In this document: in pieces, positions 4,214-20,742 of the stretch
Layout: each line of letters opens with the position of its first letter
How positions within the stretch are numbered: position 1 is the stretch's first letter
Source: a virus
Strand: one strand, 5' to 3'
IMG/VR virus record: IMGVR_UViG_3300010397_000097
Location: 1 to 21,182 of that record
DNA length: 21,182 nucleotides
The notes under the pieces: model-generated
Told to the model about the DNA's origin: nothing
Seen by the model: only the letters and a program-made list of their open reading frames with translations
The model's database searches: none
Translations under genes and position numbers: made by a program

Positions 4214-4315
4214 TCAGCGTAACGGCGTTTCGCAGGCGGTCAGCAGGATCAGCAGCACGACCGTGATCGCCAGCGCCAGCAGGGCGTAGAGCAGCGCCTC
4301 GCGGTGGCTAGTCAT
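4214..4315 (-). CDS. 33-aa peptide with lipobox-like end
   Basis: A 33-aa peptide, MTSHREALLYALLALAITVV and on, with one hydrophobic segment (about residues 9-25) ending in L25-T26-A27-C28, a good lipobox for signal peptidase II. If processed, the mature lipopeptide would be only Cys-ETPLR. It starts with ATGA overlap on the coiled-coil gene upstream and is the last gene of that minus-strand array. Phage outer-membrane spanins (Rz1 type) are small lipoproteins, but this mature part is far shorter than usual, so a simple membrane-anchored peptide is equally possible. Confidence 0.6.
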   Translation of the reverse strand: MTSHREALLYALLALAITVVLLILLTACETPLR

Positions 4316-4686
4316 CGCAAGACCCCAGCCTCGGTCAGATCGGCGCGCAGCTTGGCGATCTCCTGCTTCGCGTCGGCCAGATGCTGCTCGCACTTGAGTA
4401 CGAGGCGATCCGCCGCCACGATCGCGGCGGCCTGATCGTTGATGGTGGCGCGCAGCCGATCGATCTCGGCCTGCATCAGGTCTTGCGTCTCGACATGCAT
4501 GCGAGAGCTTTCGTGCATGGCACTCTGCAGCCGCACGATCTCGCGCAGGTCGCAGTCGCGCAGCTCGCGTACCACCGTGACCTGCTCGCGTAGCCGCTCG
4601 ATCTCGGCCCGCAGGCAAATAGGGCACGAACCATCGGCCGTCACGTCGCTCTCGCGTTCCCATATCTCGTGCGGGCATTCGTTCAT
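4312..4686 (-). CDS. Coiled-coil protein with N-terminal Cys motif
   Basis: A 124-aa protein. The N-terminus has C4, H6, C21 and C24 (NECPHE ... GSCPIC), possibly a small zinc site. Residues about 27-120 are heptad-rich coiled coil: AEIERLREQ, REIVRLQSAM, AEIDRLRATI, QEIAKLRADL. Two of these heptads are encoded by copies of the 18-bp repeat found through this array. It overlaps both neighbours by ATGA. It is one of four coiled-coil genes in a row that look related at their repeats and junctions. Function unknown; an oligomeric scaffold or decoy role would be speculation. Confidence 0.75.
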   Translation of the reverse strand: MNECPHEIWERESDVTADGSCPICLRAEIERLREQVTVVRELRDCDLREIVRLQSAMHESSRMHVETQDLMQAEIDRLRATINDQAAAIVAADRLVLKCEQHLADAKQEIAKLRADLTEAGVLR

Positions 4687-4958
4687 GGCTGGGGCCCCAG
4701 GGCACGGATTTTCGCATACAGCCCATTGAGGTAGTGGGGGTCTTCTAGCTCGGCGATACGCTGCCGCAGCCGTTCGATCTCGGCGTCCTTCGCGGCAATA
4801 ATCTCTTCCCTGCTGAGGGGCGCGTTGGGTGCAAGGTTGTAATGCCGTTTCAGGATATTTAGGTCAGCAGTCAGCCGCTCGATCTCGTCGGCGGCCTCCC
4901 AACAATGCGGGTAGCTGTCCTTGTTCCAAGCGCGCAGCCGCTCCACGATGTCGCTCAT
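4683..4958 (-). CDS. Coiled-coil protein with IVERLRAW and EAADEIERL motifs
   Basis: A 91-aa protein starting MSDIVERLRAWNKDSYPHC, then EAADEIERLTADL and AKDAEIERLRQRIAELE. The SDIVERLR ... EAADEIERL layout recurs, from memory, in many small phage and prophage proteins of unknown function. The protein ends RALGPQP, resembling the ALETKP/ALDTKP ends of its upstream paralogues. It overlaps both neighbours by four bases. Three copies of the 18-bp repeat, one weaker, lie in it. Cytoplasmic and probably oligomeric; role unknown. Confidence 0.78.
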   Translation of the reverse strand: MSDIVERLRAWNKDSYPHCWEAADEIERLTADLNILKRHYNLAPNAPLSREEIIAAKDAEIERLRQRIAELEDPHYLNGLYAKIRALGPQP

Positions 4959-5128
4959 GGTGTGGTGTCCTTGAGGGCGGCGCTAGCCCTCGGTGGCCCG
5001 AACCGGCGACCAATGCAATTCCCTATCCAGTAGAGCAGGCTTGGTAGTAAGCCGTCCGGTGGCACATAGCCGCCACAAGCGCCCTCAAAACGCCCATACC
5101 AGAACCAAGATGCGTGTCTGTCGGTCAT
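4955..5128 (-). CDS. 57-aa protein with Trp/Tyr-rich start
   Basis: A 57-aa gene reading MTDRHASWFWYGRFEGAC onward. It is the only member of this array without heptads. It is Gly/aromatic-rich (WFWYGRFEGACGGYVPP), with a short hydrophobic part (LLPSLLYWIGNCIG) that could touch a membrane. Its last residues, AALKDTTP, and their DNA resemble the RAALDTKP end of the upstream gene, so the junction seems to have been duplicated with different gene bodies. ATG at 5128 overlaps the previous stop; its stop overlaps the next ATG. No family is recognised. Confidence 0.65.
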   Translation of the reverse strand: MTDRHASWFWYGRFEGACGGYVPPDGLLPSLLYWIGNCIGRRFGPPRASAALKDTTP

Positions 5129-5607
5129 GGCTTGGTGTCCAAGGCGGCGCGGGCTATCCTTATGAGATCGGCTGCGCTGTCGTATTTTGTGCCACCGCTC
5201 GCGATCAGAACCACCGCCGCCCGCAGCCGATCGACCTCGCGGTTCAGCTTCGAAAGTTCGCCATCGCGCGGGTCAAAGGCGTAATCGTTCGCCGTTTGCA
5301 GCCGCATGTTTTCGTGCTGCAGCCGCTCGATCTCGGCCTCCTGTGCCCGCAGCGTGACGCCAGCGGCGTTGTTGATGTCCACCCAGCTATCAACAACCCC
5401 ATTCAGCCGCTCGATCTCGGCACGCAACTGTTCGCACTCGCGCTCTGACCCCTGCCACATGCCCTTGAAGATGCCAGCTGTGTCGCGGTCTACACTCGTG
5501 TCTGCAAGTGCCCGCATGTGTCCCTGCAGCCGCTCGACCTCGGCGCGCAGTGTTTCGTTTTCCCGTGCTAGGTCATGCGTCTGTGTATCGTCGCCAAACT
5601 GCATCAT
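5125..5607 (-). CDS. 160-aa coiled-coil protein
   Basis: A 160-aa protein dominated by heptads: RAEVERLQ (about 21-28), RAEIERLNG (62-70), EAEIERLQHENMRLQ (90-104) and NREVDRLRAAV (122-132), followed by a C-terminal region ending ADLIRIARAALDTKP. Four heptad units are encoded by near-identical 18-bp repeats. The end is clearly similar to that of the upstream paralogue (HTIARRALETKP). The ATG at 5607 overlaps the upstream stop as ATGA; a second ATG at 5604 is possible. There are no membrane or signal sequences. Function unknown. Confidence 0.78.
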   Translation of the reverse strand: MMQFGDDTQTHDLARENETLRAEVERLQGHMRALADTSVDRDTAGIFKGMWQGSERECEQLRAEIERLNGVVDSWVDINNAAGVTLRAQEAEIERLQHENMRLQTANDYAFDPRDGELSKLNREVDRLRAAVVLIASGGTKYDSAADLIRIARAALDTKP

Positions 5608-5858
5608 GGCTTCGTCTCCAGGGCGCGGCGGGCAATGGTGTGGGCTCGCATTGCCTTGCCTGCCTCCGAGATCACACGGTCCTGTAGCGCGATGATTTCT
5701 TGCAGCGCCGTCTTCAGTCGCTCGATCTCGGCGTGCTTGGTGTCGATGTCGGCGTTCAGGGCGTCGATCATGCTTTTGGAGTGAGTTTGCAGCCGCTCGA
5801 TCTCGGCATCGCGCTCGCGCAATCTGCGGGCAAACCGTTGCCGTTCTTCGTCGGTCAT
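5604..5858 (-). CDS. 84-aa coiled-coil protein, first gene of the array
   Basis: An 84-aa protein beginning MTDEERQRFARRLRERDAEI and ending TIARRALETKP. Two heptad blocks, DAEIERLQTHS and HAEIERLKTALQEI, are encoded by the 18-bp repeat. The frame is open to 5906, but ATG at 5858 is chosen because GGAGG lies seven bases upstream, while the more distal start would overlap the terminase start and the palindromic motif. Being promoter-proximal, it probably shares a control region with the divergent terminase gene; the CAGGAAACCTGAA copy at 5888 is 29 bases upstream. Function unknown. Confidence 0.76.
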   Translation of the reverse strand: MTDEERQRFARRLRERDAEIERLQTHSKSMIDALNADIDTKHAEIERLKTALQEIIALQDRVISEAGKAMRAHTIARRALETKP

Positions 5859-5887
5859 ATAAGCCTCCGCTGTGAAATCCCAGCCTA

Positions 5888-5900
5888 CAGGAAACCTGAA
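5888..5900. promoter_or_regulatory. Palindromic motif CAGGAAACCTGAA, copy 2
   Basis: The motif lies between the divergent coiled-coil gene (start 5858) and the large terminase (start 5900). The last A of the motif is the first base of the terminase ATG. AGGA within it sits seven bases before the ATG, so here the motif may also act as ribosome site, and a bound protein could block translation-region DNA or transcription. The identical 13 bases at 1757 and 12154 argue for a shared regulatory role. Confidence 0.6.
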
Positions 5901-7396
5901 TGGCACGTAAAGTCCCCAGGAAGGCGGTCGTCGCCAAGCCGGCGCTCACCGCCGAGCAGGAAATGGCGCTGCGCCAGGAAGTCGCCGCCAAGGATGTGAT
6001 GATCCGCCGCCTCGCACGCGAAAAGGAACGGCGCGGCGCACTCAACAAGCTCAATGCTTACGTGCCATACGCGAAACAACGCGAGTTCCACGAGGCCGGC
6101 GCACTCTATCGCGAGCGCGCCATGATGGCCGGCAACCAATTGGGCAAAACCACTGCAGGAGCCGCCGAGGCCTGCATGCATCTCACCGGCCGATACCCAC
6201 CCTGGTGGAAAGGCCGCGTGTTCGACCGGCCAATCCGCGCCGTCGCCGGCTCCGAAAGCGCGGAATTGACCCGCGACGGCGTGCAACGCCTCATCGTCGG
6301 TAACCCGCGCGACGAAAGCGCATGGGGCACCGGCTTGTTGCCGCGCGATACGCTCAAGAACTGGACCCGGCGCAACGGCGTCAGCGACGCCCTCGACGGC
6401 ATACTGGTCGAATGGGGCGGCGGCGGCGACGTTCAGGTCGAACATAGCTCGCTCAACTTCAAATCCTACGACCAAGGACGCGGAAAATGGCAGGCCGACA
6501 CGGTCAACTGGGTCTGGTTCGATGAAGAACCGCCGCTCGACATCTATTCCGAAGGCTTGACCCGCGTGTCGTCGACCGGCGGCATGGTGTTTTCGACTTT
6601 CACACCGCTGCTCGGAATGTCGGAGGTCTGCCGGCGGTTTTTATTGGAGCCGTCGCCCGATCGCGCCCTCGTCACCATGACAATTGATGACGCGCCGCAC
6701 TACACCGAGGAGCAGCGCGCCAAAATCATCGCCGGATTTCCCGCCCACGAACGCGATGCCCGCGCCAAAGGCATTCCGACGCTCGGCAGCGGCCGAATTT
6801 TCCCGATTGCCGACGAGGACATCGCAATTCCGGCGAGAATTTTTCCCAAACAGTTCGCGCGCATTCGCGGATTGGATTTCGGCTGGGATCACCCGTTCGC
6901 TTGCGTCGAATTGGTGCATGATCGCGACGAAGACGTGATCTACGTCGTCAAATGTCACAAGCAACGACAGGCAACGCCGGTTTTGCACGCCGCCGCCATC
7001 CGGGGATGGGGCAACGAGTGGGTGCCGATCGCGTGGCCGCACGATGGTCTGCAGGCCGACAAGGGATCAGGCGACGAACTCGCCACGCAATACCGAAATC
7101 AGCATCTCAACATGCTGCCCGAGCGCGCAACCTTCGTGGACGGCGGTTCCGGCGTCGAAGCCGGCCTGATGGAGATGCTCGGCCGCATGCAGACCGGAAA
7201 ATTGAAGGTGTTTGCGCATCTCAACGAGTGGTTCGAGGAGTTCAGGCTGTACCATCGCAAGGATGGCAAGGTCGTGAAGGAATTTGACGACCTGATGGCC
7301 GCCACACGCTACGCCCTGATGATGCTGCGCTACGCCGACACCGAGCCGGTGAAGCGCGTGCGCCTGCCACCCGGCGGCTCCTGGCAGGCGGCATAG
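5900..7396 (+). CDS. terL: Terminase large subunit (packaging ATPase and nuclease)
   Basis: A 498-aa protein, nearly the same length as P22 gp2 (499 aa). The N-terminal ATPase has Walker A at A77-T84 (AGNQLGKT), Walker B at V205-E210 (VWFDEE) with the catalytic glutamate, and a coupling motif near STFTP (232-236). The C-terminal RNase H-like nuclease shows candidate metal-binding acids at D326 (GLDFGWDH), D382 (WPHDG) and D463/D464 (EFDDLMAATRYA). It cuts concatemeric DNA and pumps it through the portal into the procapsid, acting with a small subunit (perhaps the DUF5681 protein). The N-terminal 50 residues are charged and helical. ATG at 5900 has AGGA seven bases upstream, inside the palindromic motif. 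Confidence 0.95.
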   Translation: MARKVPRKAVVAKPALTAEQEMALRQEVAAKDVMIRRLAREKERRGALNKLNAYVPYAKQREFHEAGALYRERAMMAGNQLGKTTAGAAEACMHLTGRYPPWWKGRVFDRPIRAVAGSESAELTRDGVQRLIVGNPRDESAWGTGLLPRDTLKNWTRRNGVSDALDGILVEWGGGGDVQVEHSSLNFKSYDQGRGKWQADTVNWVWFDEEPPLDIYSEGLTRVSSTGGMVFSTFTPLLGMSEVCRRFLLEPSPDRALVTMTIDDAPHYTEEQRAKIIAGFPAHERDARAKGIPTLGSGRIFPIADEDIAIPARIFPKQFARIRGLDFGWDHPFACVELVHDRDEDVIYVVKCHKQRQATPVLHAAAIRGWGNEWVPIAWPHDGLQADKGSGDELATQYRNQHLNMLPERATFVDGGSGVEAGLMEMLGRMQTGKLKVFAHLNEWFEEFRLYHRKDGKVVKEFDDLMAATRYALMMLRYADTEPVKRVRLPPGGSWQAA

Positions 7397-8522: not shown

Positions 8523-9517
8523 TGCCGACGCTGAAGCAGCTGGGCTTCGACAACAACGCAAATCTTCTCGGCACCGCCGCCGGCACGTTCCCGCCGCCTC
8601 CGATGTTCAAGGTGCTCGGCAACCTGGGCGATCCCGAACCCACCGCACCCTATATCGGCGCATTCGGCCCGCGCAGCGTCACCGGGCCAGGACGCGGCTC
8701 GCCAGGAGGCCTGCCCATCCAGGCGCGCGATGCGCCCAACCTCGCATTGGTGCGCGAGCGCATGCAGCGTGCCCTGGAAGACTATCCGGGGCTGGCAGCA
8801 ACACTCGCGCGCAATCGCTCCGCAGAGATCGGCCCGCAGGCCGCGCCCGAAAAGCGCGCATGGTACGACGCCCTGGTGTTCGATCGTGCCGCCGCCAGGG
8901 GCGAGCCGCTCGACTACACGCTCACCAACCCGGCATACTTCCCGTCGACCACGACCGGCTATCGTGGCGCGGTCGGCAATTACGCCAGCGATCCGGCGCT
9001 GTTCGCGGGCGCTAACCCGGCGAACTATGCGACCGGCAACGCCAGCAACGACCCCAGGACCGGCCGTCCGGTCGGCTTTGCCGGCGGCCCGCAGACCGGC
9101 TCGATCGGCACCGGCAGCAACCCGGAGCGCGGCGGCGTCGAGCGCCAGGATCTGCCGTTCGCGCGCGCCATGGGCTACACCGGGCCGGCCGTGACGCCGA
9201 TCGGCGTCGTCCCCGGCGCACCGCTCGGCATGGACGCCACCGATCTCACCTCCGGTGGCTGGAACACCACTGTGAGCGCCGCCCCCGGCCTGCCAGGAGG
9301 CGCTGGATACGTTAATCCCGCCAGGGTGGCTCAAGGTGCCACGACCAACCCGGCAGAGCTTGTGCGGCCTCCTGAAGAGGCCGGCTTCGATTGGACGAAG
9401 CTCATCAGCGGCCTGAAATACAATCCGAAGCAAATCGCCTCCTCCAAGCCTTTCACTTTCGATGCCCCGCTGATGCGGATGACACCGATCGGACGCCGCC
9501 GTGCCAAATCCCCTTAA
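8522..9517 (+). CDS. 331-aa Gly/Pro-rich phage protein, possibly virion-associated
   Basis: A 331-aa protein. After a Pro-rich start (TFPPPPMFKVLGN) comes a helical part (LALVRERMQRALEDYPGLA), then a segment with DALVFDRAA, YTLTNPAYFPS, and a Gly/Asn/Ala-rich stretch (NPANYATGNASNDP, GFAGGPQTG). The latter reminds me of segments in phage cell-wall-degrading virion proteins, but no catalytic motif is clear, so I do not assign activity. ATG at 8522 is preferred over GTG at 8492 because of TGATG coupling. The end overlaps the next gene by 17 bases. Location between terminase and portal suggests an injected or structural protein. Confidence 0.72.
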   Translation: MPTLKQLGFDNNANLLGTAAGTFPPPPMFKVLGNLGDPEPTAPYIGAFGPRSVTGPGRGSPGGLPIQARDAPNLALVRERMQRALEDYPGLAATLARNRSAEIGPQAAPEKRAWYDALVFDRAAARGEPLDYTLTNPAYFPSTTTGYRGAVGNYASDPALFAGANPANYATGNASNDPRTGRPVGFAGGPQTGSIGTGSNPERGGVERQDLPFARAMGYTGPAVTPIGVVPGAPLGMDATDLTSGGWNTTVSAAPGLPGGAGYVNPARVAQGATTNPAELVRPPEEAGFDWTKLISGLKYNPKQIASSKPFTFDAPLMRMTPIGRRRAKSP

Positions 9518-10436
9518 TACGCTGCTCACGCTCGGCGAGCGCATCGCGCAGCGCCGCATGCTGAAAGCAGCCGGCGGCCAAGCGCCGATCAAGGGCTTGC
9601 CGCAAGCGCCGCTACAGGTCGGCGGCGAGCCGTTCATCCCAGGCCCGAGCCGCGCCGTGCGAGAGGCGGCCGAAGACTACATGCGCGGCACCGGGCGCGA
9701 ATATGTCCCGCTGCAGAACTACGTTCCGGTCGATGTCCCGCGCGCGCAGCAGATCGCCAGGGAGTTCGATGTCATGCGGCACACCCCCGGCGACCCGGCG
9801 GTGATGCGCTCCTACGAGGCAATGGCGAAGGAAACCCGCGACCAGTACGAGCAGCTGAAGAAGCTCGGCGTGAAGTTCGAACCGTTCCCCGAGCTGCCGC
9901 CCGGTGTGCCCGATCCCTACGCCGCCACACCTCGGCTGGCGCAGAAAGACTTCCTGCAGAACAAGCATATGTACTACTTCCCGTCCGAGCAGGGTTTCGG
10001 CACCGAGGCCAGCGGACAGGCCGCCATCAATCTTCTGGAGCAACCCATGCTCGCCGGCAGCGGCGTCAAGATCGCCGGCAAGGAAGTCCCGTTCAACGAC
10101 CTGTTCCGCATCGTTCACGATGTCTTCGGGCACCACAAGGAAGGCGTCGGCTTCCGCGCAGCCGGCGAGGAGAATGCGTGGCGCTCGCACGCGCGCATGT
10201 ACTCACCCGAGGCACTGCCGGCGATGACGGCGGAAACGCGCGGGCAGAACTCCTGGGTGAACTACGGGCCGTTCGCCGAGCAGAACAAGGGCGCGAGCGG
10301 CGCAGCAACAATCTACGCGCCGCAGAAGATCGGAATGTTGCCGGACTGGGTGGTGCAGTCGGGCCGCATGACGCCGCTCGGCATTGCCGGCGGTGGCGTC
10401 ACGCTCGGCGCGCTCGGGGATCGCTATGGCGAATGA
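9501..10436 (+). CDS. 311-aa protein with HDVFGHH motif, polyvalent-protein-like
   Basis: A 311-aa protein with a GTG start at 9501, overlapping the previous gene. The conserved-looking core runs from about residue 55 to 285: YMRGTGREYVPLQNYVPVD, KHMYYFPSEQGFGTEASG, then RIVHDVFGHHKEGVGF (203-218), GEENAWRSH (222-230) and AETRGQNSWVNYGP (244-257). I recall this set of motifs from phage 'polyvalent' proteins injected with DNA. The invariant-looking H206, D207, H211, E223, E245 suggest a metal-binding enzyme; the HDxFGH part resembles the iron-binding motif of aromatic amino acid hydroxylases, without wider similarity seen. The reaction is unknown. No good ribosome site precedes GTG. Confidence 0.75.
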   Translation: MPNPLNTLLTLGERIAQRRMLKAAGGQAPIKGLPQAPLQVGGEPFIPGPSRAVREAAEDYMRGTGREYVPLQNYVPVDVPRAQQIAREFDVMRHTPGDPAVMRSYEAMAKETRDQYEQLKKLGVKFEPFPELPPGVPDPYAATPRLAQKDFLQNKHMYYFPSEQGFGTEASGQAAINLLEQPMLAGSGVKIAGKEVPFNDLFRIVHDVFGHHKEGVGFRAAGEENAWRSHARMYSPEALPAMTAETRGQNSWVNYGPFAEQNKGASGAATIYAPQKIGMLPDWVVQSGRMTPLGIAGGGVTLGALGDRYGE

Positions 10437-12523: not shown

Positions 12524-15352
12524 TTGGCCTATCGTAGAAAACGCAGAAGGCGGGCGCGTAATCTCGACAACGCGCCCGACGTTGCGCGCGCCACTGCGAG
12601 TGACGATACCACTGACGGCACGCAGGACGGCGACACCAGTGTGCCGGCGGGGCAGAGCGATCTGCCGCCGCAAGGTGCCGACACCGAAGACCTCGCCGAG
12701 GTTCACAAGGAAGCCGTCAAACGCTACGAGCAATCATGGGAGAGAGAACGAGATAATCAGGAGAAGGCCTACGACGATCTCAGATTTCTCTGTGAGGAGG
12801 AGGCGCAGTGGGACGGTAAGGCGCTGCAGGATCGGCGCGATCAACAGCGACCCATTCTCACCGTCAACAAAATCCCTCAGTTCATCCGACAGGTCACGGG
12901 TGACATCCGGCAGCTGCGGCCATCGATCCATGTTGTGCCGGTCGATGAGAAGGCAAACGATAGTCTCGCTGTCGATGTGCTGCCGGAAATGGTGCGCTAC
13001 ATCGAGCGCCGCAGCGATGCCAAGGGCGCGTATTTCAGCGCCGCCGATCAGATGGTCAGCGCCGGCATCGGGCATTGCCGTGTGTTCACAGAATATGCCG
13101 CCGGCTCCACGCTCAATCAGGAGATAGCGATCGGCCTGATACAGGACGGCGTCGCCGTGCTGTGGGATTGCGACAGCATCCATCTGACGCGCAAGGATGC
13201 AAATTATTGCTTCGTGCCGATCGATATGAACCGGCACGCCGCCGAATTGCGCTGGCCGAATAAGTCATTCGATGCGCCGATGCTGCATGAATGCTGGCAG
13301 GGTTGGTACACCGACGATTTCGTTCGCGTCACCGAGTACTGGCGCAAGACGCCGGTCGAGAAGGAAATCGCGGTCTATCCCGATGGTAAGATCGTTGACC
13401 TATCCGACGACACCTACGAGTACGGCCAGGAGGACGACCTCGGCTACGACGGCGACGTGCCCTACAACGACATGGGCGATTATGGTCCCGATCAAGCGGA
13501 CAAGCCTGACAAGGAAGACGCTAATTACCGGATGGCGGAAGGTGACCGCGCTTGCGCCAATTGCACGATGTTCCAGGGACCGAGCCATTGCACCGCGATC
13601 CAAGACCCGGTGCGGGCCAACATGCTGTGCGATTATTTCGAGCCGCTCAATCTGCTCGCCGGCTTTGGCAACAACATCATTCCGTTTCCAGCACGCCCGC
13701 CGCTCGGTCCCAACATGGGACCAAAGCGCGCCGATGCTATTGCCGGCAATGCACGCATCGAGAAGCGCGACAGCTATCAGGTCGAACGCTTCGTCATGTC
13801 GGCGACCGAAATGCTCGAGGAGCCGGACATCTGGCCGGGGATGGAAATCCCGATCATTCCGTTTCTCGGCGAGGAAATCAAAATCGGTCGTCAGGTCGTG
13901 CGCCGCGGAGTTGTGCGTTCGCTCAAGGATGTGCAACGGCTCTACAACTATGCAATCAGCGCCGACGCTGAAGCTGTCGCGCTGCAGCCCAAAAGCCCAT
14001 TCAAAGGAACCAGAAAGAACTTCGACAATTCCAGGGATCAATGGGAGTCGGCCAACAGCAGAAATTGGCCGTATCTGGAGTATGACCCAGATCCATTAAA
14101 CGGCGGTCGTCCACCCGAGCGCGAGCCGCCGCCGGTCGCATCGAGTGGCATCAAGGAATTGCTCGGTGTCGCCAGCACAGACATGAGTGCGGTCACCGGC
14201 ATCTATCCATCATCGCTCGGTGCGCCGGCACAGGAAACCTCGGGCCGCGCCATCGTCGCGCGTCAACGTGAAGGCGACACCGGCACGTTCGTGTATGTCG
14301 AGAGTTTCGGTCGAGCCATCGAGCGCATTGGGCAGATCATTGTCGATCTGATCCCTCATGTCTACGACACCGAGCGCACGCTGCGCGTTGTCGGCGACGA
14401 CGGCCGGATGTCGCAAGTGATGATCAACAAGTCCGAGATCGATCCGAACGGCGACGGCATCGCGACCCGACTGCTCAATGACGTGACCATCGGTTCCTAT
14501 CAGGTGTCGGTCGAGATGGGACCGAGCTATTCAACGAAACGAGAGGAAGCGCGCGACGGCATGCAAACGCTGATGCAGGCGCTCGGCCCGCAGTCCGCGC
14601 CGCTGCTGGCTGATCTGTTCGTGCAGGGGCAAGACTTTCCGCTCGCCGATCGCATTGCGGAGCGCATGCAGCTGCTGCTGCCGCCCCAGGTCGCCGCCAA
14701 GGAAGCGGAGAGGTCCGGTCAGCCGCCGGCACCGCCACAGCCGCCGCCGCCGCCGACACCGGAGCAGCAAATCCAGGCCGAGGAACTGAAGATCAAGCAG
14801 GGCGAGCTAACGCTCAAGCAACAGGAAATCCAGAGTAAGGCTCTCCTGGCGCAATCGCAGCAGCAACTTGATCAGAAGAAGATCGAGCTTGAACTGGTCA
14901 AGGTCAATGCCGAGCTTGAGAAGGCGCGCATGGCTGCGCAGAGCAGCGTCATCACACATGCCGCCAAGTTCCATCAGAGTGGCCTGGATATGGCCAACGC
15001 CGATGCGCAGCGCGCGCATGAGGTCAACGTCGCGACCATCGACGGGGCCTCCAGCATGGGCACGGCATTGGCGTCTGCAGTGCCGTCCGATGAGCAGCAG
15101 CAGAAGCAGATCGAGGCGCTGATCGAGGCTGTCAGTCAGCTGCAGAAGGCCGTCGGGCAGATCGCCGAGATGAACAGTAGCGGTGGGGTGCCCCAGCCGC
15201 CCGGACCTCCTCCTCCGGGGCCGCCGCCGGGGCCAACGCCGCCGCCGCCGCCAGGGCTGGATGAGTTCATAGAACCGCCCCCTGGCGGCCCGCCACCCAG
15301 CGAGCCGCCGCCTGGAGCGCCTCCGCAAGGGCAGGGAGGGCCGTTTGGCTAA
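12524..15352 (+). CDS. P22-type portal protein with Cys4 insertion
   Basis: A 942-aa protein versus about 725 aa for P22 gp1. The N-terminal part has the P22-portal look: YEQSWERERDNQEKAYDDL, then RPILTVNKIPQFIRQVTGDI and RQLRPSIHVVPVD. The portal is the dodecameric ring through which DNA enters and leaves the capsid. Additions: an acidic segment (about 300-335), then C344-x2-C347-x8-C356-x12-C369 followed by Asp-Tyr-Phe, a pattern like a high-potential iron-sulfur protein motif; a long Gln/Lys/Glu coiled coil (about 745-870); and a poly-Pro/Gly tail (about 889-942). It starts with TTG at 12524, preceded by AAGG. The stop overlaps the next gene's TTG by eight bases. Confidence 0.92.
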   Translation: MAYRRKRRRRARNLDNAPDVARATASDDTTDGTQDGDTSVPAGQSDLPPQGADTEDLAEVHKEAVKRYEQSWERERDNQEKAYDDLRFLCEEEAQWDGKALQDRRDQQRPILTVNKIPQFIRQVTGDIRQLRPSIHVVPVDEKANDSLAVDVLPEMVRYIERRSDAKGAYFSAADQMVSAGIGHCRVFTEYAAGSTLNQEIAIGLIQDGVAVLWDCDSIHLTRKDANYCFVPIDMNRHAAELRWPNKSFDAPMLHECWQGWYTDDFVRVTEYWRKTPVEKEIAVYPDGKIVDLSDDTYEYGQEDDLGYDGDVPYNDMGDYGPDQADKPDKEDANYRMAEGDRACANCTMFQGPSHCTAIQDPVRANMLCDYFEPLNLLAGFGNNIIPFPARPPLGPNMGPKRADAIAGNARIEKRDSYQVERFVMSATEMLEEPDIWPGMEIPIIPFLGEEIKIGRQVVRRGVVRSLKDVQRLYNYAISADAEAVALQPKSPFKGTRKNFDNSRDQWESANSRNWPYLEYDPDPLNGGRPPEREPPPVASSGIKELLGVASTDMSAVTGIYPSSLGAPAQETSGRAIVARQREGDTGTFVYVESFGRAIERIGQIIVDLIPHVYDTERTLRVVGDDGRMSQVMINKSEIDPNGDGIATRLLNDVTIGSYQVSVEMGPSYSTKREEARDGMQTLMQALGPQSAPLLADLFVQGQDFPLADRIAERMQLLLPPQVAAKEAERSGQPPAPPQPPPPPTPEQQIQAEELKIKQGELTLKQQEIQSKALLAQSQQQLDQKKIELELVKVNAELEKARMAAQSSVITHAAKFHQSGLDMANADAQRAHEVNVATIDGASSMGTALASAVPSDEQQQKQIEALIEAVSQLQKAVGQIAEMNSSGGVPQPPGPPPPGPPPGPTPPPPPGLDEFIEPPPGGPPPSEPPPGAPPQGQGGPFG

Positions 15353-18496: not shown

Positions 18497-19405
18497 ATGG
18501 TTGACGAAACTGATCCGAACGCCGCGCCAGCCGGAAACGAGCCAGCAGGCAATCAGACAGCGGAAGTCCCGGTCGAGCCGTCACCGCCGGCAACAGAAGC
18601 CGATGGTGACCAGCAAACAGAGACTGAAGCCCCAACCGAGTTAGACCTCGGCGATGGAGTTATCGAAGACGAGCAAGCTGACGAAGATGGTGGCGACGAA
18701 GAGCAAGAAGAAAGCGACAAGAGCCGCCTGCAACGGTATCGCGAAAGACAAGCCCAGCTGAGAGCCGAGAACGAGGCACTGCGTGCGCGCGTAGAGCAAA
18801 GCACAGGCACGCCATCGGATGCGGCACAACTGCAACGCCAGTTCGATTACGAGGTGTGGCAGGAAATCGGCAATCCACCGGATGAAAACGATCCGCGATA
18901 CCAGGGCAACTACGTCAAGCTGGAACGCGACAGGCAAGTCTGGGAGTTCAGCCGCGTACAGGTCGAGCGCGAAGTCCGCAAAAGCATGATCGAGCGCATC
19001 AAGCATGCGCAAGAGAGTGTTCGAACACAAGTTGCGGCTCACAAAGAGCGCGCGGCCAAGCTGGCAACCCAAGTCAAAGACTACAACGAGGTCATGGCAA
19101 AGTCGAAAATGCAAGTCTCGGAGCATGTCGAACGCCTGTTGCTGGCAAGCAAGAAATCCGAACGTCTCGGATACGTGCTCGCCAAAAACGAAAACAAGCT
19201 CGCACAACTCAATCGCATGTCAGTCGAGGAAGCCGCCCGTGAGATCGGGCGACTTGAGGGCCGTTTGTCTCTGCCGCCATCCGCCAGAACACAAACCAAG
19301 GCCCGCAAGCCCATCACGCCTCTGAAAGGTACCGGCGCAGCGCCGGCATCTGGATTGGGTGCCGTCAATGCTTGGCTAAAAAAAGAATACGGCGACCGCG
19401 CGTGA
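18497..19405 (+). CDS. P22-like scaffolding protein
   Basis: A 302-aa protein, almost the length of P22 gp8 (303 aa). The first 75 residues are very acidic and disordered (DLGDGVIEDEQADEDGGDEE), then come long charged helices (SRLQRYRERQAQLRAENEAL, and the region 140-240), and a basic C-terminus (RTQTKARKPITPLKG ... WLKKEYGDRA) as expected for the coat-binding end of scaffolds. It directs coat assembly into a procapsid and leaves before packaging. The gene lies directly before the coat gene, 26 bases apart, which is the P22 order. ATG at 18497 has GAGG eleven bases upstream. Identification rests on order, length and composition rather than sequence identity. Confidence 0.85.
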   Translation: MVDETDPNAAPAGNEPAGNQTAEVPVEPSPPATEADGDQQTETEAPTELDLGDGVIEDEQADEDGGDEEQEESDKSRLQRYRERQAQLRAENEALRARVEQSTGTPSDAAQLQRQFDYEVWQEIGNPPDENDPRYQGNYVKLERDRQVWEFSRVQVEREVRKSMIERIKHAQESVRTQVAAHKERAAKLATQVKDYNEVMAKSKMQVSEHVERLLLASKKSERLGYVLAKNENKLAQLNRMSVEEAAREIGRLEGRLSLPPSARTQTKARKPITPLKGTGAAPASGLGAVNAWLKKEYGDRA

Positions 19406-19431: not shown

Positions 19432-20742
19432 ATGCCGAATACCGTTCTCAACCCGACTATCATCGCCCAGACGGCGGTGCGCATTCTCGAAAACGAATTG
19501 GTGATGGGCCGCAGGGTCTATCGCGGGTTCGAAGATGAGTTCGACAAGAAGATCAACGGATACGAGGTGGGTGACACCATCTCCATCCGCAAGCCGCAGA
19601 ACTTCTCGGTGCGCAGCGGCGCTGTTGCCGTCATCCAAGATGTCACCGAGGGTAAGCTGACGCTCTCTGTTAATCTGCAGAAGGGCGTCGATTTCAAGTT
19701 CAGCGGCGCTGAGTTAACGCTCAAGATCGATCAGCTGGCCGATCGGGTGATCAAGCCCGCGATGGTGCGGCTGGCCAATCAGGTCGATACTGATCTGATG
19801 AACCTGTTCGTCGGCATCCCCAACTGGGTGGGTCAGCCGGCGACGGGTGCAGATGCTCCAATCTCTACGTTCCAGCAGTTCGCCAGGGCGGCAGAGAGAC
19901 TGGATCAGATGGCATGTCCGCAAGACATGCGGTCTGCGGTGCTCGCCCCTGACAGCTACTGGGCGCTGGCCGGCGGCTCGCTCACGCAGTTCGTGCCGCA
20001 AGTCAACGCGCAGTCCTACCGGCAAGGCGAGATCGGTAAGATCGGCGGTGTCGATACCTACATGTCGCAAAACGTGCCGACGTTCGTTGGACCCGGCAAC
20101 CTCGACAGTGCTGCCACCGTCACGGGTGCGCAGAGCACGACCTACGCTGCCGTGATGAATACGGAAGCAACACCCGGCACGATGCAGCTTGTTGTGGGCG
20201 GCATCTCTCCCGCCACCAGTGTGGTGAAGGCCGGCACGGTGTTCACCATCGGTACGGCGGGCACTGCGGTCAGGGCCGTCAACCCGGTCACCAAGGCCGT
20301 GTTGCCGTTCCAGCAGATGTTCACTGTCGTGTCGGACAGTGCGGCAGCGGTTGCTGGTGCGGTCACGTTGACCATCACACCTCCGATCATTCCGATTGGT
20401 GGGGCGGATGGCCCGCAGTGGGGCACTGTTGATCAGGCGGCTGGTGCCGGCGCAACCATACAGATCGTCGGCGACGCCAGCGGTTCCTATCGCCAGAACC
20501 TGATGTTCCATCGCGATGCATTCGCGCTGGTGATGGTGCCGATGATCAAACCACCCGGCGCTGTTGATGTTTCGCGTGAGACATACAAGGGGACGAGCGT
20601 TCGCCTCATCCCGTACTACGACGGCACCAACGACGTGTCGAACTACAGGCTCGACATCCTCTACGGCATCAAGGTGGTCGACAACAGGCTCGCTGTCAGA
20701 ATGTCGGGCGGCTCTGCCACGCTCGGCAACCCGGCGCAGTAG
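19432..20742 (+). CDS. P22-type major coat protein
   Basis: A 436-aa protein (P22 gp5 is 430 aa) with the expected N-terminus of this family: MPNTVLNPTIIAQTAVRILE, then FDKKINGYEVGDTISIRKP and a HK97-fold pattern (LTLSVNLQKGVDFKFSGAEL; SYWALAGGSL; GVDTYMSQNVPTF). A Val/Ala/Thr-rich beta segment (about 220-345) lies where P22 carries its I-domain, and the end (SVRLIPYYDGTNDVSNYRLDILYGIKVVD) is typical of the family. It forms the icosahedral shell with help from the scaffold. AGGAG is seven bases before the ATG at 19432, and a strong hairpin follows the stop, both fitting high expression. Confidence 0.94.
   Translation: MPNTVLNPTIIAQTAVRILENELVMGRRVYRGFEDEFDKKINGYEVGDTISIRKPQNFSVRSGAVAVIQDVTEGKLTLSVNLQKGVDFKFSGAELTLKIDQLADRVIKPAMVRLANQVDTDLMNLFVGIPNWVGQPATGADAPISTFQQFARAAERLDQMACPQDMRSAVLAPDSYWALAGGSLTQFVPQVNAQSYRQGEIGKIGGVDTYMSQNVPTFVGPGNLDSAATVTGAQSTTYAAVMNTEATPGTMQLVVGGISPATSVVKAGTVFTIGTAGTAVRAVNPVTKAVLPFQQMFTVVSDSAAAVAGAVTLTITPPIIPIGGADGPQWGTVDQAAGAGATIQIVGDASGSYRQNLMFHRDAFALVMVPMIKPPGAVDVSRETYKGTSVRLIPYYDGTNDVSNYRLDILYGIKVVDNRLAVRMSGGSATLGNPAQ

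Follow-up and report, generated by a model that had tools for sequence, protein, structure and literature searches.

A domain related to high-potential iron-sulfur proteins inserted in the P22-type portal protein of an uncultured phage clade

The virus record IMGVR_UViG_3300010397_000097 from IMG/VR (positions 1 to 21,182, the 21-kb stretch analyzed in full here and referred to as the window) contains an open reading frame (ORF) predicted to encode a portal protein with four closely spaced cysteines inside an insert. This locus raises the question of whether the cysteines resemble the cluster-binding pattern of high-potential iron-sulfur proteins (HiPIPs) by chance or by descent, and what such a domain could do in a portal ring.

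The portal gene and its insert

The ORF starts with TTG and was predicted to encode a P22-type portal protein of 942 residues. The protein matched PF16510 in two stretches with an insert between them (E = 3e-158; 528 bits, with the cut-off at 26) and was also assigned to phrog_156 (E = 5e-127), and the top Foldseek matches of the full-length model were the portals of Sf6 and P22. Genes for terminase, scaffolding protein, and coat protein in the window provide the expected context of a portal gene (Table 1). The likeness to P22 gp1 and Sf6 gp3, both PF16510 proteins, covers the portal fold, the gene order with scaffold and coat, and a wing with a trigger loop; an extra domain in this loop is present in the window portal but in neither P22 nor Sf6.

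The cysteines are arranged as C344-x2-C347-x8-C356-x12-C369 (13553 to 13630) with CANC and CDYF as flanks. Four elements of the original prediction, made from the sequence alone, could be compared with the translated ORF and the family searches. The motif, with its 2-8-12 spacing and both flanks, held exactly, as did the acidic insertion said to precede it (residues 297 to 325) and the otherwise P22-like character of the portal. The claim that P22 gp1 is about 220 residues shorter also held (725 residues, or about 217 fewer), but only about 104 of the extra residues (297 to 400) belong to the insert, the rest forming an N- and a C-terminal extension.

The insert most probably lies in the trigger-loop region of the portal wing, a placement that rests on alignment and not on a solved structure. 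It follows from the phmmer pairing of window residue 287 with P22 residue 237 and of window residue 418 with P22 residue 274, which brackets P22 residues 237 to 274. The P22 trigger loop (residues 226 to 277) faces outward from the wing. In the procapsid it covers the cleft that holds scaffolding protein, and it has to swing to avoid a clash with the spooled DNA (PMC5290284, PMC13386823). A DNA-sensing role has been proposed for this loop in P22.

Several other features of the window were observed. Portal residues 730 to 942 form a C-terminal extension with a coiled coil and proline-rich repeats that replaces, or lies beyond, the P22 barrel. A 1,005-residue ORF with bacterial Ig-like repeats (PF19078; 15345 to 18362, + strand) overlaps the portal stop codon and separates portal and scaffold, unlike the related locus L002, where the scaffold gene directly follows the portal. 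A 311-residue protein with an HDVFGHH stretch (9501 to 10436, + strand; phrog_3170, unknown function) is conserved in L002. On the - strand, two small cysteine-rich ORFs with CxxC pairs (66 to 293 and 490 to 840) appeared zinc-ribbon-like, and several neighboring ORFs at 4312 to 6054 have the coiled-coil phrase AEIERLR/IERLQ in common, a pattern that would fit duplication of one small gene.

Table 1. Features of the portal gene and its neighbors in the window
Feature	Position	Strand	Basis
Portal protein with insert	12524..15352	+	PF16510, phrog_156, Foldseek Sf6/P22
Whole insert, residues ~297-400 (~104 residues)	13412..13723	+	Insert-region listing; phmmer pairing with P22
Acidic linker ahead of domain, residues ~297-325	13412..13498	+	Fast evolving (pN/pS 0.72 for residues 297-329)
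HiPIP-type domain, residues 326-374 (DKPDKEDANY...CDYFEP)	13499..13645	+	PDB profile matches to PioC; AF2 model
Tyr335, conserved HiPIP Tyr upstream of first Cys	13526..13528	+	Invariant in A3 and A5; >=90% in 42 phage domains
Cys344, predicted cluster ligand 1	13553..13555	+	Invariant; aligns with PioC Cys22
Cys347, predicted cluster ligand 2	13562..13564	+	Invariant; PioC Cys25
Cys356, predicted cluster ligand 3	13589..13591	+	Invariant; PioC Cys34
Cys369, predicted cluster ligand 4	13628..13630	+	Invariant; PioC Cys47
Scaffolding protein, expected portal-wing partner in procapsid	18497..19405	+	phrog_8865, E = 1e-33
P22-type coat protein	19432..20742	+	PF11651, E = 5e-44
Large terminase	5900..7396	+	PF03237 and PF17289

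Homology of the insert to HiPIPs

Comparison of 59 residues around the motif with the PDB (phmmer) recovered PioC of Rhodopseudomonas palustris TIE-1 (PDB 6xyv) at an E of 5e-4 over 40 residues, with the cysteine spacing unshifted. PioC is the smallest known HiPIP, with a solved structure and a [4Fe-4S] cluster. Its cluster ligands have been assigned experimentally as Cys22, 25, 34, and 47 (PMC7462912), a 2-8-12 spacing shared by Iro of Acidithiobacillus (Cys24/27/36/49; PMC10654088). Another seemingly strong phmmer match, PDB 8h2i, was rejected because it was made up of numerous very short repeats in a repetitive protein and included no significant single stretch.

A DNA pattern common to the window and PioC was then scanned through IMG/VR, and 75 of the 80 listed matches translated in frame as members of one domain family. 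The profile built from 42 of these sequences (A2) matched PioC (9e-18), the Rhodothermus marinus HiPIP (1.6e-7), and the R. tenuis HiPIP (1isu; 4e-3) in the PDB. As this set was fetched with the window/PioC pattern, its cysteine, phenylalanine, and proline columns were forced, and a portal-only profile (A3) was therefore tested separately. A3 comprised seven portal inserts recruited through portal peptides outside the insert, without any cysteine pattern; the one exception, L002, came from an earlier scan and was found again in the portal-peptide recruitment as L004. A3 matched PioC (1e-7), then a HiPIP at 0.06, and nothing else, and no zinc domain was among the PDB matches of A2 or A3 at an E of 1 or less. 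The phenylalanine three residues after the second cysteine was part of the IMG/VR search pattern; in A3, where it lay outside the recruitment criteria, this residue (F350) and Tyr335 were both invariant. Roles of the conserved HiPIP Tyr and Phe have been described (PMC10654088).

Before the fourth cysteine, the portal clade has Leu or Val where PioC has Gly-Trp and most other phage modules have Trp. An aromatic residue directly before this cysteine is common, though not universal, in HiPIPs. Some TAT-exported bacterial relatives also lacked it (GTC in L210 and CSC in L252). On the Pfam HIPIP model (PF01355), the window domain scored 14.3 bits against a gathering score of 22, a threshold that PioC, a true HiPIP, also failed to reach (14.8). 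The NCBIfam Iro model matched phage members at 6e-10 and 2e-4, under its own strict cut-off, and PHROGs contained no family for these domains at an E of 0.001 or better.

The domain is predicted to have a HiPIP fold. Modeling with AF2 without templates gave a pLDDT of 84, and 16 of the 17 PDB matches of this model in Foldseek were HiPIPs, with PioC at an rmsd of 1.4 and a TM score of 0.74 by PioC length. Three HiPIPs reached VIA Z scores of 6.5 to 6.6, which are modest alone, but the match list was nearly pure and consistent with the sequence result. The insert was poorly determined in the full-length portal model (pLDDT mostly 36 to 60), since most alignment rows are gaps there, and its pose on the ring is undetermined.

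Given the PDB sequence and profile matches, the 2-8-12 spacing as in PioC, and the HiPIP fold of the model, the resemblance to HiPIPs represents homology and not chance spacing. The original prediction of a HiPIP-like cluster-binding pattern was accordingly upheld; for its proposed [4Fe-4S] or zinc site, the HiPIP relation is supported, while the cluster itself remains a prediction without metal data. The likeness to PioC and Iro includes the spacing, the upstream Tyr, the Phe after the second cysteine, alignment over the whole length, and the predicted fold. PioC and its bacterial kin differ in being exported, free periplasmic electron carriers, whereas the portal domain is embedded, has no leader, and has lost the Gly-Trp before the fourth cysteine. 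Because the domain lies inside the portal ORF and does not meet the criterion of a TAT leader and periplasmic location, it was classed as a HiPIP-type domain and not as a HiPIP electron carrier.

Conservation of the domain and its occurrence elsewhere

Nine distinct insert-bearing portals, 65 to 88% identical to that of the window, were found, with the four cysteines and Tyr335 invariant; a fragment (L016) had His in place of Tyr335. Failure of the cysteines to be conserved as a set would have refuted the original prediction. Every distinct insert-bearing portal, recruited through peptides outside the insert, kept all four, so the set is conserved wherever the insert is present. The HiPIP-type domain is under purifying selection, with a pN/pS of 0.38 that is close to the 0.25 to 0.32 of the portal core, against 0.72 in the linker (residues 297 to 329).

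The nearest portals without the insert, L017 (71% identity) and L019 (61%), have an empty site, reading DLTDDEDGAKR and DLTDDDDGTKR, respectively, where the window has DLSDD-insert-MGPKRADA. On a portal tree built without the insert, the insert label needed a single change (support, 92/90). With the empty sites, this one change makes a single origin of the insert in the portal clade the likely history. A tree of the domain itself (60 columns) was mostly unresolved; the portal domains grouped beside phage modules L076, L069, L081, and L096 (88/88), which is no more than a hint of possible kinship. Alignment of the portal against 84,980 bacterial and archaeal genomes found no relative, and no prophage or host could be named. 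Overall, this portal clade acquired a HiPIP-type domain of the PioC/Iro branch once and has kept it; the insertion site, in the trigger-loop region, is known by alignment and the fold by prediction.

Elsewhere in uncultured phages, the domain was found as a separate gene of 57 to 95 residues, at the C terminus of a second portal type (L116; phrog_146, E = 3e-120), within XkdF-type prohead protease proteins (L110 and L139, Pfam PF14550; L127, PHROGs head maturation protease), and at the N terminus of tail proteins (L087 and L123). In L098, L147, and L152, whose P22-type portals have no insert, the separate gene stood between those for terminase and portal; nine further records (L141, L080, L144, L073, L117, L111, L092, L129, and L099) had it close to one or the other. 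Where phrog_2 detected a terminase, the domain was within 4 kb of it in 11 of 15 records, on the same strand in all 11. Among the ten records longer than 20 kb, six had the domain within 4 kb of the terminase, against 1.8 expected (P = 0.003); this simple test assumed uniform placement, and the records are incomplete. Four records (G018, G029, G033, and G035) did not fit the association, with the domain far from the terminase. The module thus recurs in head-packaging gene clusters. Since it also sits far from terminase and in tail proteins, a trigger-loop role cannot be its general function.

Two arrangements were observed in addition. A near-identical N-terminal domain (MSFVVHRVSKSAARY...) was present in ORFs of 380 to 870 residues in L087, L123, L104, L065, and about 20 similar loci, with L087 and L123 matching tail protein phrog_5939. 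A single ORF in L110 (6870 to 9488) combined the HiPIP-type domain with a histidine phosphatase (PF00300, 2e-36), a ChaB-like stretch, and an XkdF-type protease.

Searching with a phage-only profile recovered 26 bacterial genes for PioC-like proteins, nearly all from Alphaproteobacteria and mostly with TAT-type twin-arginine leaders; judged by these leaders, they are probably free, exported relatives of the phage domain. A tblastn search with several family members in 50,697 phage records returned only Synechococcus phage S-SRM01 and a weak match in one uncultured large phage, and the portal form was absent from isolates among these known phage genomes. The S-SRM01 protein (QPX48026.1; L161, 2947 to 3150), annotated as hypothetical, exceeded the Pfam HIPIP cut-off (23.0 against 22).

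Putative role in the portal and competing readings

The favored explanation is that the clade captured a small HiPIP-type domain that carries one [4Fe-4S] cluster per subunit and serves in the trigger loop as a cluster-stabilized element of assembly or maturation. This reading is considered likely, with cluster and function inferred and no metal data. Binding of a [4Fe-4S] cluster by the domain is itself expected by inference, in the absence of metal, redox, or functional data. Under this model, the host iron-sulfur machinery would load the cluster in the host cytoplasm, and the cluster would keep the small domain, which has little secondary structure, together and rigid. With one cluster per subunit, a portal ring would carry up to twelve, and the domains would decorate its perimeter. 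At the tip of the trigger loop, each would act as a contact element in procapsid assembly and maturation, its surface touching scaffold, coat, or DNA; a redox-dependent change in this contact would be possible but not needed. The cluster might differ in its properties from those of HiPIPs, as Leu or Val replaces the Gly-Trp of PioC before the fourth cysteine. The original prediction had offered a structural staple or a redox-sensitive switch, both of which remain inference. The structural role is favored because no observation calls for redox chemistry and the module turns up in assembly proteins that are unrelated to one another; a switch is not excluded.

The main rival regarding the metal is that the four cysteines bind zinc, the loop being stabilized simply by a zinc knuckle of HiPIP or convergent origin. 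Four cysteines with CxxC are also a zinc pattern, the HiPIP aromatic before the fourth cysteine was lost in the portal clade, and single members gave stray Pfam zinc-ribbon matches (E of about 0.05). This reading is nevertheless unlikely, as the PDB profile searches returned HiPIPs without zinc domains, conservation extends beyond the cysteines to the Tyr, Phe, and Pro framework of HiPIPs, and the predicted fold matches HiPIPs. Still less likely is a former HiPIP that has lost its cluster and persists as a disordered or disulfide-bonded surface decoration. The low-confidence region in the full-length model and the altered Gly-Trp would agree with it; against it stand four cysteines and a Tyr invariant down to about 65% portal identity, the low pN/pS of the domain, and its well-folded prediction when a deep alignment is given.

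A redox switch is a possibility that cannot be dismissed. The cluster would be reduced in the host cytoplasm and oxidized in the free virion, altering trigger-loop behavior and, through it, headful sensing or readiness for ejection. The HiPIP cluster alternates between its 2+ and 3+ states at potentials of +50 to +500 mV, the insertion falls within the loop suggested to sense DNA in P22, and the module recurs in head-packaging loci. However, the residue adjoining ligand 4 is changed, there are no redox data, many sister phages manage without the domain, and a domain inside the capsid may meet no redox partner. A bolder reading, also only conceivable at present, is that head building in uncultured phages makes repeated use of a HiPIP-type [4Fe-4S] module and that a twelve-cluster ring in the DNA-sensing trigger loop of this clade makes packaging or maturation cluster or redox dependent.

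Iron-sulfur clusters in phage structural proteins have precedent in the lambda gpL-type tail-tip proteins and the hubs of RcGTA and roseophage R4C, in which four cysteines coordinate the cluster, and the tail-tip cluster was reported to be essential for tail assembly (Tam 2013, as cited). Those clusters are at the tail tip and not in the head, and no HiPIP-type domain has been reported there. The literature searched, from which subscription papers and preprints were excluded, contained no account of a phage HiPIP-type domain. The HiPIP domain family and tail-tip clusters were already known, and the location and use in a portal appear to be new. The finding suggests that phages carry a broader, still unannotated range of HiPIP-type modules next to terminase and portal genes; among phage HiPIPs, the S-SRM01 protein, from an isolated cyanophage, is well suited to laboratory study. 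If the favored explanation is true, an electron-carrier-type cluster domain in the portal, at the loop proposed to register a full head, would be a new type of component in one of the most thoroughly studied molecular machines.
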